From Kiloniella laminariae DSM 19542 (GTDB taxonomy: Bacteria; Pseudomonadota; Alphaproteobacteria; Kiloniellales; Kiloniellaceae): a DNA stretch of 64,000 nt. Below the pieces are notes generated by a model. That model saw only the letters and a program-made list of their open reading frames with translations, was not told where the DNA came from and did no database searches. Shown here piece after piece: positions 9,233 to 20,229 of the stretch. Position 1 is the stretch's first letter. Every line of letters begins with the position of its first letter. The stretch is from contig NZ_KB893134.1 of NCBI RefSeq assembly GCF_000374005.1, positions 654,643 through 718,642 on the forward strand. The letters run 5' to 3'. Position numbers and translations under genes: made by a program.

Positions 9233-11260
9233 TCAGAAGGCAGTGTCTTTGCTCTGGGTCCTGGAGGCAGTTGAATCAAGAATGGTTACAATATCAGCAA
9301 GGATGGACGTGAGGTCATAGTCCTTGGGCGTATAGATGGCTGCGACACCTGCCTTGAGCAGGGCTGCGGCATCTTCGGGCGGGATGATACCGCCCACAAC
9401 GACGGGGATGTCAGGCAATCCGGCGACCTTAAGGCGGGAAATGACTTCTGTAACCAGGGGGCCGTGCGATCCCGACAGGATGGAGAGGCCGACAATGTGA
9501 ACATCCTCTTCCAGGGCGGCATTGACAATCTGCGCCGGGGTAAGGCGGATGCCTTCATAGACCACCTCAAAACCGGCATCCCGTGCCCTGACAGCGATCT
9601 GTTCCGCGCCGTTGGAGTGACCATCCAGCCCGGGTTTGCCAACGAGAATCTTGGCGCGTCGTCCGAGTTTCGCCGAGACCTGGTCAAGCTTTTGGCGAAT
9701 TTCAGTCAGTGAGTTGATGTCATTGCTGACTGCACTGGCGCGACCAACACCTGTTGGAGCCCGGTACTCGCCAAAAATTTCCCTGAGGGCCTGACCCCAT
9801 TCGCCAGTTGTGACACCCGCATGGGCGCAGGCAATTGAACTCTCCATGATGTTTTTGCCTTCGCGCGCAGCTGCCTGTAGGTCTTCGAGAGATTTTTTGA
9901 CTTGCTGCTGATCGCGTTTTTCCCGCCATTCCTTCAGGCGGGAGATCTGTTCGGCTTCGGCCTTGTCGTCAATTTTCATATAGCCACCGTCCCCGCCACT
10001 GGTCAGAGGGGACAGTTCGGTTTCGGTATGTTTGTTGACGCCAATAACCGTCAGATCGCCGCTTTCGATATCCCGAAATCTCCTGGCTGCGGATTCAACC
10101 AGTTTGCCTTTCATATAAGAACTCTCGACAGCAGCAACCGCTCCGCCCATTTCCTCGATCCGGGCAAGTTCTTCGCGCGCTTCCTGCATCAGTTCTTCCA
10201 CCTTGGCTTCAATCACAACCGAACCATTGAAGATATCACCATATTCCAGCAGGTCAGTTTCGAAGGCGACGATCTGCTGAAGCCGGAGAGACCATTGCTG
10301 GTCCCAGGCACGAGGGAGCCCCATTGCTTCGTTCCAGGCGGGTAACTGAACAGCGCGGGCTCGGGCATCTTTCGAGAGGACAACGGCCATCATTTCAAGA
10401 AGGATTCGGTAAACGTTGTTTTCCGGTTGCTGCTCGGTCAGGCCAAGAGAGTTAACTTGGACGCCATAACGGAAACGGCGATATTTTTCTTCTTCAACAC
10501 CATAGCGCTCGCGGCAGATCTCATCCCAAAGGCGGGTGAAGGCCCGCATTTTACACAGCTCGGTGACAAAGCGGACGCCGGCATTCACAAAAAAGGATAT
10601 GCGTCCGACAACCCGGGCAAAATCCTTGTCGGGTACCTGTCCGGCAGTCTTGAGCGAATCGAGAACCGCAATCGCGGTCGCCAGGGCATAGGCAAGCTCC
10701 TGTACCGGTGTCGCGCCTGCTTCCTGAAGGTGATAGGAGCAGACATTCATCGGATTCCATTTGGGAATTTCTGTGTAGGTGAAGGCAATGACATCCGTGA
10801 TTAGTCGCATGGATTGCCGCGGCGGGAAGATATAGGTGCCGCGTGAAAGATATTCCTTGATCAGATCGTTCTGGGTCGTGCCGGAAAGGCTGTCGCGGGG
10901 CAGTCCCTGCTTTTCGGCGCAGGCGATATAAAGCGCCAGCAGCCAGGGGGCCGTGGCGTTGATGGTCATGGAGGTGTTCATCTGATCCAGCGGGATCTGG
11001 GTAAAGAGCGTTTCCATATCGCCAAGGTGGGAGATCGGTACGCCAACCTTTCCGACCTCGCCTTTTGAAAGAGGGTGGTCGGAGTCGTATCCGGTTTGGG
11101 TCGGGAGGTCAAAAGCGACGGATAACCCGGTTTGCCCCTTGGCCAGATTTGTCTTGTAGAGCGCATTGGAAGCGGCAGCAGTTGAATGTCCGGCGTAGGT
11201 GCGAAAGAGCCAGGGTTTATCGCGGGACTCAGGTTTTGCTGCACTTGCGTTCATGATCAT
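9233..11260 (-). CDS. ecm: Ethylmalonyl-CoA mutase
   Basis: Adenosylcobalamin enzyme that converts (2R)-ethylmalonyl-CoA to (2S)-methylsuccinyl-CoA. At 675 residues it is a single-chain mutase. The N-terminal substrate barrel begins KPWLFRTYAGHSTAAASNAL, wording specific to Ecm rather than methylmalonyl-CoA mutase. The C-terminal B12 domain has the DxHxxG motif (GLDGHSNG, about residue 547) and the SILSGSH and VVGGIIP segments. Starts at 11260 or 11254 both follow AGGAAAA. It is divergent from ccr, the gene for the preceding pathway step, and the 238-bp shared spacer probably controls both. Confidence 0.95.
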   Translation of the reverse strand: MIMNASAAKPESRDKPWLFRTYAGHSTAAASNALYKTNLAKGQTGLSVAFDLPTQTGYDSDHPLSKGEVGKVGVPISHLGDMETLFTQIPLDQMNTSMTINATAPWLLALYIACAEKQGLPRDSLSGTTQNDLIKEYLSRGTYIFPPRQSMRLITDVIAFTYTEIPKWNPMNVCSYHLQEAGATPVQELAYALATAIAVLDSLKTAGQVPDKDFARVVGRISFFVNAGVRFVTELCKMRAFTRLWDEICRERYGVEEEKYRRFRYGVQVNSLGLTEQQPENNVYRILLEMMAVVLSKDARARAVQLPAWNEAMGLPRAWDQQWSLRLQQIVAFETDLLEYGDIFNGSVVIEAKVEELMQEAREELARIEEMGGAVAAVESSYMKGKLVESAARRFRDIESGDLTVIGVNKHTETELSPLTSGGDGGYMKIDDKAEAEQISRLKEWREKRDQQQVKKSLEDLQAAAREGKNIMESSIACAHAGVTTGEWGQALREIFGEYRAPTGVGRASAVSNDINSLTEIRQKLDQVSAKLGRRAKILVGKPGLDGHSNGAEQIAVRARDAGFEVVYEGIRLTPAQIVNAALEEDVHIVGLSILSGSHGPLVTEVISRLKVAGLPDIPVVVGGIIPPEDAAALLKAGVAAIYTPKDYDLTSILADIVTILDSTASRTQSKDTAF

Positions 11261-11498: not shown

Positions 11499-12782
11499 AT
11501 GACTGATACAGCTAAAGTAGTGGACCTTACTGTCCATCAGGAAAAAAAAGATCTCTATGAAGTTGGTGAAATCCCGCCTATGGGACATGTGCCGAAACAG
11601 ATGTATGCCTGGGCAATCCGGCGGGAGCGTCAGGGCGAGCCGGAAAAGGCGATGCAGGTTGAAGTGGTTGATGTCCCCACACTGGAAACCAACGAGGTTC
11701 TGGTTCTGGTTATGGCGGCAGGGGTTAACTACAACGGCGTCTGGGCCGGACTGGGTAAGCCGATTTCCGTGTTCGATGTCCACAAAGAACCCTATCATAT
11801 TGCCGGTTCTGACGCATCAGGGATTGTCTGGGCAGTCGGTGCCAAGGTTACCCGCTGGAAGGTGGGTGATGAGGTTGTGGTTCACTGTAATCAGGATGAC
11901 GGGGACGATGAGGAGTGTAATGGCGGCGATCCCATGTTTTCTCCCTCCCAGCGTATATGGGGTTATGAAACGCCAGATGGTTCTTTTGCCCAGTTTACAA
12001 GAGTCCAGTCCCAGCAGCTCATGCATCGTCCCCGTCACCTGACCTGGGAAGAATCCGCCTGTTACACTCTGACCCTGGCAACCGCCTATCGCATGCTTTT
12101 TGGTCATCGACCCCATATTCTCCGGCCGGGCCATAATGTTCTGGTCTGGGGGGCTTCGGGGGGGCTGGGTTCCATGGCAATCCAGTTGATTGCCACCGCA
12201 GGCGCCAACGCCATTGGAGTGATTTCGGATGAAACCAAACGAGATTTTGTGCTTTCCCTCGGCGCTAAGGGCGTTATCAACCGCCGCGATTTTGACTGTT
12301 GGGGACGCTTGCCTGAAGTCAACGACGTTGAGGGTTACAAAGACTACATGAAGGAAGTCCGCAAGGTCGGCAAGGCGATCTGGGATATCACCGGCAAGGG
12401 GAATGATGTCGATTTTGTCTTTGAGCATCCCGGGGAGCAGACCTTTCCGGTCAGCTGCAACATTGTCAAGCGCGGGGGCATGGTGGTTTTCTGTGCCGGA
12501 ACAACCGGTTTTAACCTGACCTTTGATGCCCGTTTTGTCTGGATGCGGCAAAAACGTATTCAGGGCAGCCACTTCGCCAATCTGAAACAGGCGTCGCAGG
12601 CAAATCAGCTGGTGATTGAACAGCGTCTCGACCCCTGTATGTCCGAGGTTTTTTCCTGGGATGATATCCCGCGCGCGCATACCAAAATGCTCAATAATCA
12701 GCACAAACCCGGGAATATGGCTGTGCTGGTGCAGTCAAAGCGTCCGGGCTTGCGTACGCTGGAAGACGTGGTTGAAGGCTAG
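11499..12782 (+). CDS. ccr: Crotonyl-CoA carboxylase/reductase
   Basis: NADPH-dependent reductive carboxylation of crotonyl-CoA to (2S)-ethylmalonyl-CoA, the defining enzyme of the ethylmalonyl-CoA pathway. It is an MDR-type protein. Diagnostic blocks include LYEVGEIPPMGHVP, AAGVNYNGVWAGLG, HIAGSDASGIVW, GDDEECNGGDPMFSPSQR, the nucleotide loop VWGASGGLGSMA and VWMRQKRIQGSHF. The frame is open from 11385, but ATG at 11499 (427 residues, normal length) has GAGG at good spacing and matches where homologues begin. Divergent from ecm; mcd follows after a 163-bp spacer that looks structured. Confidence 0.97.
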   Translation: MTDTAKVVDLTVHQEKKDLYEVGEIPPMGHVPKQMYAWAIRRERQGEPEKAMQVEVVDVPTLETNEVLVLVMAAGVNYNGVWAGLGKPISVFDVHKEPYHIAGSDASGIVWAVGAKVTRWKVGDEVVVHCNQDDGDDEECNGGDPMFSPSQRIWGYETPDGSFAQFTRVQSQQLMHRPRHLTWEESACYTLTLATAYRMLFGHRPHILRPGHNVLVWGASGGLGSMAIQLIATAGANAIGVISDETKRDFVLSLGAKGVINRRDFDCWGRLPEVNDVEGYKDYMKEVRKVGKAIWDITGKGNDVDFVFEHPGEQTFPVSCNIVKRGGMVVFCAGTTGFNLTFDARFVWMRQKRIQGSHFANLKQASQANQLVIEQRLDPCMSEVFSWDDIPRAHTKMLNNQHKPGNMAVLVQSKRPGLRTLEDVVEG

Positions 12783-12796
12783 GCCTTCGCCGGTTG

Positions 12797-12889
12797 CCGA
12801 CAGGGATTGTATCTGTTCGGGGGTCTCGAACTCCCGGATGGTTGCAAAGCCGTTCCTATAACCTGCTGTTGTAAGAACGCCCCTGTCGG
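12797..12889. ncRNA. Candidate structured RNA in the ccr-mcd spacer
   Basis: CCGACAGGG (12797-12805) and CCCTGTCGG (12881-12889) form a perfect 9-bp closing stem around 75 bases. Inside are a hairpin CGGGGG-TCTCGAA-CTCCCG (12818-12836) and a second hairpin GGTT-GCAA-AGCC (12840-12851) with a GNRA-type loop, extendable by GGA/TCC. Together this is a three-way-junction shape, 57 bp before mcd. It could be a leader element of mcd or a small RNA; the strand is not certain. I do not recognise a known family. Confidence 0.45.
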
Positions 12890-12945
12890 AACCCACGCTG
12901 TCCCCGTGTCACAGTTTCATTATCCTGCGTGTTAAAAGGTTCCAA

Positions 12946-14607
12946 ATGATGTCTCATGATCCGCTGCTGTTCTCCCGCTGCGAGAAGGCTGTCGCTGCTG
13001 CCACCGTTTTGTTGGAAGAGGCGAAGCAGTCTGTTGCTGGTCTGGTCAAGCAGGAGGGGCGCATCAGCTCTGAACTGCTGGAGGAACAGCAGTTTGCAGC
13101 ACATGGTCTGGCCTGGATGGCAACCTATGTTGCGGCGCTGGATACATTGCTGAACTGGGCGCGGAAACTGGAGGAAGTAGGGAGCTTTCGGGAACTCGAA
13201 GCGCTGCTGCTGAAAATTGCCTTTGGCGAATATCTTGCGCAGATCAGTGGCGGGATTGCCATCAGCCAGGTCGAAGTTTTGCGCCCGGTCGACATGGGGC
13301 TTTCAGAAGAACAGGTTGCCACCTTTGAAAGCGAGGCGGTCAAAATTCTGATTGCACAGGGAAACACAGTCGAAAACCGCAAGGCGTTGTCGGGATATCT
13401 GGCGAACAGTCTCGAAACTGGACACTTCGGAGCCACGGGTCTTGGTGATGAAACGCTGGAGATGATCCGCGGCCAGTTTCACAAGATTGCCGATGATTAT
13501 CAGGATGCGGCTCATGGCTGGCATCTTCGGGATGAGCTCATTCCGATTGAGGTGGTTGAGCAACTGGCTGAACTTGGCATCTTTGGCCTCACCGTACCCG
13601 AGGAATATGGCGGGCTGGGGATGGGCAAGCTGGCCATGTGTGTTGTAACCGAAGAGCTTTCCCGCGGATATATTGGTCTGGGCTCACTTGGAACGCGGTC
13701 TGAGATTGCGGCTGAATTGATTCGTCTGGGGGGAACCGAGGAACAAAAACAGTCATGGTTGCCGCGGATTTCCTCGGGTGAAATCTTGCCAACTGCGGTC
13801 TTTACAGAGCCGAATACGGGATCAGATCTCGGATCCTTGAAGACCCGGGCGATCCGTGACGGGGATTGTTATCGCATCACAGGCAACAAGACCTGGATTA
13901 CCCATGCGTCGCGCAGCGATATCATGACCTTGTTGGCCCGGACCAACCCGGACGAGCCCGGCTATAAAGGGCTGTCGATGTTCATTGCGGAAAAACCGCG
14001 CGGCAGCGAAGAGGCCCCTTTTCCGGCAGCAGGGATGAGCGGGGGCGAGATCAAGGTGCTCGGTTATCGCGGTATGAAAGAGTATGAGCTTGGCTTTGAT
14101 AACTTTGAAGTCAAGAGCGAGAACCTGCTGGGAGGAGAAGAGGGGCAGGGTTTTAAACAGCTGATGGCGACTTTTGAATCCGCAAGGATCCAGACTGCGG
14201 CCCGGGCAGTAGGGGTAGCACAATGCGCCCTGGAGCTGGGCATGCAATATGCCCATGAGCGTATCCAGTTCGGCAAGCCGCTCTACAGTTTTCCACGGGT
14301 GTTCGGCAAGCTGGTCTGGATGGTGGTGGAAACCATGGTTGCCCGCCAGTTGACCTATGCAGCAGCCAGGGAAAAGGATTCTGATCTCCGCTGTGATATC
14401 GAAGCTGGCATGGCAAAGCTTTTGGGGGCGCGTGTAGCCTGGTCCAATGCGGATAATGCTCTCCAGATTCATGGCGGCAATGGTTACGCCGAGGAATACA
14501 AGATCAGCCGGGTCCTTTGTGATGCGCGGATCCTCAATATTTTTGAGGGGGCCGCAGAAATTCAGGCGCAGGTGATTGCCAGGGGACTCTTGTCTGGGCG
14601 CAACTAG
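12946..14607 (+). CDS. mcd: (2S)-methylsuccinyl-CoA dehydrogenase
   Basis: FAD enzyme oxidising methylsuccinyl-CoA to mesaconyl-CoA, with electrons passing to ETF. At 553 residues it is longer than ordinary acyl-CoA dehydrogenases (about 380-400) because of an extra N-terminal helical domain of some 150 residues, a hallmark of Mcd. The core shows FGLTVPEEYGGLG, FTEPNTGSDLGS, the TWITHASRSD flavin segment and the C-terminal HGGNGYAEEY and IFEGAAEIQ, the latter holding the likely catalytic Glu. The position beside ccr and ecm supports the specific assignment. Starts at 12946 and 12949 are adjacent ATGs. Convergent with gluQ. Confidence 0.93.
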   Translation: MMSHDPLLFSRCEKAVAAATVLLEEAKQSVAGLVKQEGRISSELLEEQQFAAHGLAWMATYVAALDTLLNWARKLEEVGSFRELEALLLKIAFGEYLAQISGGIAISQVEVLRPVDMGLSEEQVATFESEAVKILIAQGNTVENRKALSGYLANSLETGHFGATGLGDETLEMIRGQFHKIADDYQDAAHGWHLRDELIPIEVVEQLAELGIFGLTVPEEYGGLGMGKLAMCVVTEELSRGYIGLGSLGTRSEIAAELIRLGGTEEQKQSWLPRISSGEILPTAVFTEPNTGSDLGSLKTRAIRDGDCYRITGNKTWITHASRSDIMTLLARTNPDEPGYKGLSMFIAEKPRGSEEAPFPAAGMSGGEIKVLGYRGMKEYELGFDNFEVKSENLLGGEEGQGFKQLMATFESARIQTAARAVGVAQCALELGMQYAHERIQFGKPLYSFPRVFGKLVWMVVETMVARQLTYAAAREKDSDLRCDIEAGMAKLLGARVAWSNADNALQIHGGNGYAEEYKISRVLCDARILNIFEGAAEIQAQVIARGLLSGRN

Positions 14608-20144: not shown

Positions 20145-20229
20145 GCCCCCGTGGCGGAATTGGTAGACGCGCGTGACTCAAAATCTCGTATCTTCGGATG
20201 TGCCTGTTCGAGTCAGGCCGGGGGCACCA
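20145..20229 (+). tRNA. tRNA-Leu (anticodon CAA)
   Basis: An 85-base class II tRNA with encoded CCA. The acceptor GCCCCCG pairs with CGGGGGC. The D arm is GCGGAATTGGTAGACGC, the anticodon loop CTCAAAA reads CAA, a long variable arm follows, and the T arm is GCCTG-TTCGAGT-CAGGC. The anticodon stem CGTGA/TCTCG has one central T-T mismatch. A terminator follows at once, and nothing suggests an integrated element at its 3' end. Confidence 0.95.

Follow-up and report, generated by a model that had tools for sequence, protein, structure and literature searches.

The spacer between the ccr and mcd genes of Kiloniella contains a branched RNA stem-loop that probably belongs to the end of the ccr message, where it would serve as a 3'-UTR terminator or as an intercistronic stabilising stem-loop, rather than as a leader or riboswitch of mcd. 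Judged from the nine genomes that we compared, the element is a genuine RNA structure that has been maintained in evolution. It is new as an individual and ordinary as a kind, and its branching is the sole unusual trait. Below, the window is the 64,000-nucleotide stretch of DNA that was analysed, and coordinates refer to it unless another source is named.

The ccr-mcd locus

The window comes from the genome of a marine Kiloniella; judged by mcd, its nearest named relatives include K. litopenaei as well as K. spongiae. We compared this genome (G000) with eight other Kiloniella genomes (n = 9). The ccr gene, a gene of carbon assimilation encoding crotonyl-CoA carboxylase/reductase, lies on the plus strand at 11499..12782, and its protein matches NCBIfam TIGR01751 with 621.6 bits (cut-off 378.55). 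ATG 11499 is its likely start; the mechanical open reading frame opens 38 codons ahead of it, with TTG 11385. The next gene, also on the plus strand (12946..14607), encodes a 553-aa protein of the acyl-CoA dehydrogenase family. As none of the NCBIfam equivalogs claims this product, the name mcd (methylsuccinyl-CoA dehydrogenase) rests on context. Two successive ATG codons open mcd (12946-12951). In relatives, mcd begins where the second of them lies (MSHD/MSEN), so the true start may be 12949. A gene for a B12-type mutase, ecm by context, lies in divergent orientation at 9233-11260.

The spacer between the co-directional ccr and mcd genes is 163 nt long and contains the folded element. The stem begins 14 nt past the ccr stop codon, and the element ends 56 nt before ATG 12946, close to the 57 bp given in the original prediction.

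The fold in the window species

On the plus strand, positions 12797-12889 fold into a three-way junction with a minimum free energy of -46.6 kcal/mol. All of the 200 dinucleotide shuffles were less stable (mean -26.4 +/- 3.3, z -6.1). The closing stem, P1, is identified by the fold and by covariation. It pairs the 5' arm CCGACAGGG (12797..12805) with the 3' arm CCCTGTCGG (12881..12889) in a perfect 9-bp stem around 75 bases that hold two more hairpins, just as had been proposed. P1 can be extended by three pairs (GTT 12793-12795 with AAC 12890-12892) past a bulged G at 12796. The two inner arms are defined by the fold on the same strand: P2 (12807..12847) has 5 + 12 pairs and the loop CUCGA at 12825-12829, while P3 (12851..12879) has 5 + 6 pairs and the loop CUGCU at 12863-12867. 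Directly 3' of P1 stands AACCCACGCTGT, with no T-tract.

Three other readings were considered and rejected. A GCAA (GNRA-type) loop had been assigned to one inner hairpin. In the minimum free energy fold GCAA sits in and beside the base of P2; forcing the GCAA hairpin yields -38.0 instead of -46.6, which is 8.6 kcal/mol worse, and in G002, the nearest relative, three non-pairs break its stem. A switch pairing of GGAACC (12888-12893) with GGTTCC (12938-12943), beside the mcd ribosome-binding site, is unpaired in G002 by reading. Finally, part of the minus strand resembles a tRNA T arm, a likeness already judged not to be a tRNA. ARAGORN reports a tRNA-Leu at 20145 only, and the resemblance is absent from G002. 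At gathering score, Rfam likewise finds only tRNA-Leu over the whole window.

Shape alone is close to chance

As a genome baseline we used 858 kb around the window. Genome-wide, the three-way shape alone is near chance and proves nothing. Perfect 9-bp inverted repeats of like spacing number 171 in the 858 kb, compared with 142-166 in Markov sequence, and random sequence of this length yields 1-6 structures with a 9-bp stem and as good an energy per base. With windows of 93 nt moved by 4 nt at a time, the ccr spacer comes 12th when ordered by energy and 35th when ordered by z. Strong stems 3' of genes are ordinary in this genome: where 100 nt or more separate the end of a gene from the next open reading frame, 50/260 gene ends have a hairpin z below -4.

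Very strong terminator-like stems were also seen between convergent genes, at 718185-718295 and 606612-606737 of contig C1 of G000. They carry A and T runs inside the stem and look like bidirectional terminators common to both genes.

The closing stem is maintained across Kiloniella

The ccr tree divides the nine species into three lineages, A (the window species and G002), B (G001, G003, G004, G006 and G007) and C (G005 and G008). The closing stem was found in all nine genomes, 10-14 nt past the ccr stop. Because MAFFT, applied to the nine spacers together, does not align the interiors and the 3' arms correctly, covariation was counted on the two P1 arms joined by a linker; the 5' arms can be aligned by sequence across species. 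In the joined arms of the nine species, 98.4% of the P1 cells were paired compared with 84.6% in shuffles, a value that is inflated and partly true by construction, since the fold of each species supplied its arms. The compensatory changes in P1, not the pairing percentage, are in our judgement the real evidence for the stem. Five of the nine P1 pairs have changed on both sides: two are A-U/G-C, and the others are U-A/C-G, C-G/U-A and the pair that lies innermost. The covariation score is 0.561; it falls to 0.258 in shuffles and to 0.228 or less when the partner is slid. The chance of a full downstream complement of the 5' arm in shuffled regions is 0.5-3.5% per lineage. The covariation check on relatives that accompanied the original prediction has thus come out in favour of the stem.

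These results bear on the possibility of a functionless chance fold. Such a fold would agree with the few comparably stable structures that random sequence produces, but we regard it as extremely unlikely, because the position and the covarying stem are kept in nine species of three lineages with 80-91% ccr DNA identity. Thus, it is conservation that makes the element credible, not its shape.

Within clade A, the P2 arm is kept in G002 through a double change (U-A/C-G) and several changes on one side, and the P3 arm and its loop are almost identical in G000 and G002. The sense fold is stabler than the antisense fold in nine of nine species (in the window species the antisense strand reaches -34.4 kcal/mol, z -4.0), and G-U pairs are present in every species. 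The strand bias and the G-U pairs point to an RNA of the ccr-mcd strand.

The better folding of the sense strand also argues against a DNA palindrome or mobile repeat (MITE/REP-like, with terminal inverted repeats). A perfect inverted repeat does flank the element, and palindromic repeats lie 3' of ccr in three relatives (L023, L029 and L035), as a mobile repeat would suggest. Nevertheless, the element has one copy in its own genome, where a DNA search for further copies returned just chance pieces of 14-23 nt, and no others were found in relatives. It also occupies the same site in nine species with compensatory changes. We therefore consider a mobile origin hardly probable at all.

The interior varies between clades

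The interior of the element is a two-arm junction in clades A and B (seven species) and a single imperfect rod in clade C (two species). The three clades have the closing stem alone in common, and no loop sequence is shared. Two covariance models were run against 98 genomes, R1 for clade A and R2 for clade B, and each recovered its own clade only. Apart from marginal matches (E about 0.01-0.04), nothing appeared outside the own clade or at another locus. Around the element, Rfam gave no match at E<=1, and literature searches found no RNA described at ccr-mcd, in line with what the original prediction had stated.

Three-way junctions are common among riboswitches, and a leader of mcd that senses a CoA ester, B12 or a similar metabolite had been one proposal for this element. 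Its shape and its location, ahead of mcd and flanked by two genes of the same pathway, would be in keeping with that proposal. We now find it very improbable. A riboswitch should have a conserved unpaired core, which is absent here, and the architecture shifts from a junction to a rod between clades. The absence of an Rfam match and of a convincing copy at other genes or outside the genus also speaks against a riboswitch, as does a simple scan that shows no sigma-70-like promoter. The position of the element, fixed to the ccr stop and variable relative to mcd, and the U-tract that follows the stem in five species argue in the same direction.

A trans-acting small RNA cut from the ccr 3' UTR is somewhat easier to accommodate. 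In Rhodobacter sphaeroides, 3'-UTR-derived small RNAs that end in terminators or in PNPase-stalling structures are documented (PMC8625941), and the near identity of P3 and its loop in G000 and G002 would suit such an RNA. On the other hand, no single-stranded seed is shared across the genus and the loops differ entirely between clades. A small RNA is thus an unlikely reading, though less so than a riboswitch.

Anchoring to ccr and the U-tract

The distance from the element to mcd is 41-42 nt in clade C, 56-58 nt in clade A and 110-147 nt in clade B. By this comparison the element is anchored to ccr rather than to mcd, and it probably belongs to the ccr 3' UTR. What follows the stem also differs between clades. 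In clade B the 8 nt after the stem contain 6-7 T in the three species that were scored, and by reading G006 and G003 have a T5. The same 8 nt contain one T in the window species and two in G002 (clade A), and 3-4 in clade C.

Compared with an L-shaped intrinsic terminator, the window element has the stable G+C-rich stem-loop and lacks the U-tract, which clade B possesses. A terminator scan of the ccr-mcd spacer of the window was negative. Among the strong 3' stems of the same genome, 35/50 are followed by 5 or more T in 8 nt. The missing U-tract makes the window element untypical and means that no canonical intrinsic terminator is present there.

We also looked at other relatives with ccr upstream of mcd. 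In spacers of at least 90 nt, a post-ccr hairpin with z <= -3 is present in 19/38 (counted by hand from the table, and including two Kiloniella loci), and none of the 10 shorter spacers that could be scored has such a hairpin after ccr. At a few of these loci the upstream gene has only about 53% identity and could be a paralogue. The post-ccr hairpins of the other alphaproteobacteria are unrelated in sequence, and some are plain terminators (L064, L069).

Several spacers contain repeats of other kinds. L041, a metagenome-assembled genome of the Kiloniellales, has a near-perfect palindrome of about 28 bp (CGGATGAACACAGATGGACAGGGATAACC... and its complement) directly 3' of ccr; at -63.5 kcal/mol (z -12.2) it resembles a repeat or a terminator, and a similar palindrome is present in L070. 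The repeat-like palindromes of L023, L029 and L035, of the same order, stand in the ccr-mcd spacer (CCCTCTCCC...GGGAGAGGG; CACCCTTCGACAGGCTCAGG...CCTGAGCCTGTCGAAGGGTG). In L039 (K. litopenaei), three tandem copies of approximately AATCTATATCCGG(A)AAA lie between the terminator and mcd, immediately ahead of mcd, at about 2400-2490 of that locus.

Discussion

In sum, anchoring to the stop codon, a stem that is kept without its sequence being kept, and an occasional U-tract together suggest a terminator or 3' stabiliser of the ccr message. We propose the following model. When transcription proceeds directly past the ccr stop codon, the element would fold into a branched stem-loop of great stability. 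In the five species of clade B, where mcd lies 110-147 nt further on, the stem and the five to seven U that follow it would form an intrinsic terminator that separates ccr from mcd. The window species, G002 and two others have no comparable U-run, and their mcd lies within 41-58 nt. In these U-poor species the element would most likely be a leaky or U-poor (I-shaped) terminator, an intercistronic barrier, or both. Such a barrier would block 3'-to-5' exonucleases and would stabilise the ccr mRNA relative to mcd in a putative ccr-mcd transcript. The sequence does not distinguish termination from stabilisation.

Known systems offer parallels for both functions. Like intrinsic (Rho-independent) terminators, the element is a stable G+C-rich stem right after a stop codon, and in clade B it carries a U-tract. 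Unlike them, the Kiloniella hairpin branches in seven of the species and measures about 80-100 nt, and in the window species it is without a U-tract. The length of the branched structure, approximately 90 nt, exceeds that of usual terminators and counts against this part of the model. The lack of U residues has precedent in I-shaped terminators, which are stem-loops without a U-tract. In another alphaproteobacterium, Methylosinus sporium, U-poor ends are the majority, with 602/772 structured 3' ends (PMC12403871).

For stabilisation, one comparison comes from the Rhodobacter puf operon, in which the hairpin that separates pufBA from pufLMX makes the upstream segment more stable and determines product ratios (PMC10253847). 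Both are stem-loops between two co-directional genes of one pathway; the sequences are unrelated, and the Kiloniella element is a three-way junction. In SRPS operons, the stability of transcripts and the stoichiometry of the operon are governed by stem-loops in the 3' UTRs of selected genes (PMC8219983). These were described for Clostridium operons. The Kiloniella element has the placement of the puf and SRPS type, namely co-directional genes with a stem near the upstream stop.

A more elaborate version of the model is conceivable. The branched 3' structure might be a regulated switch, or might give rise to an RNA derived from the 3' UTR, and so fix the ccr:mcd ratio in the ethylmalonyl-CoA pathway of Kiloniella; species might toggle between a terminator (U-tract, distant mcd) and a stabiliser (no U-tract, close mcd). 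We regard this version as speculative and give it little credence.

The case shows how RNA folds from single genomes can be judged: the shape is near chance, but comparison of nine relatives reveals a maintained stem. Moreover, Kiloniella provides a natural series in which the 3' stem of ccr is kept while the U-tract is gained or lost along with the distance to the next gene. This series should help in studying how terminators and stabilising stems inside operons turn into one another.
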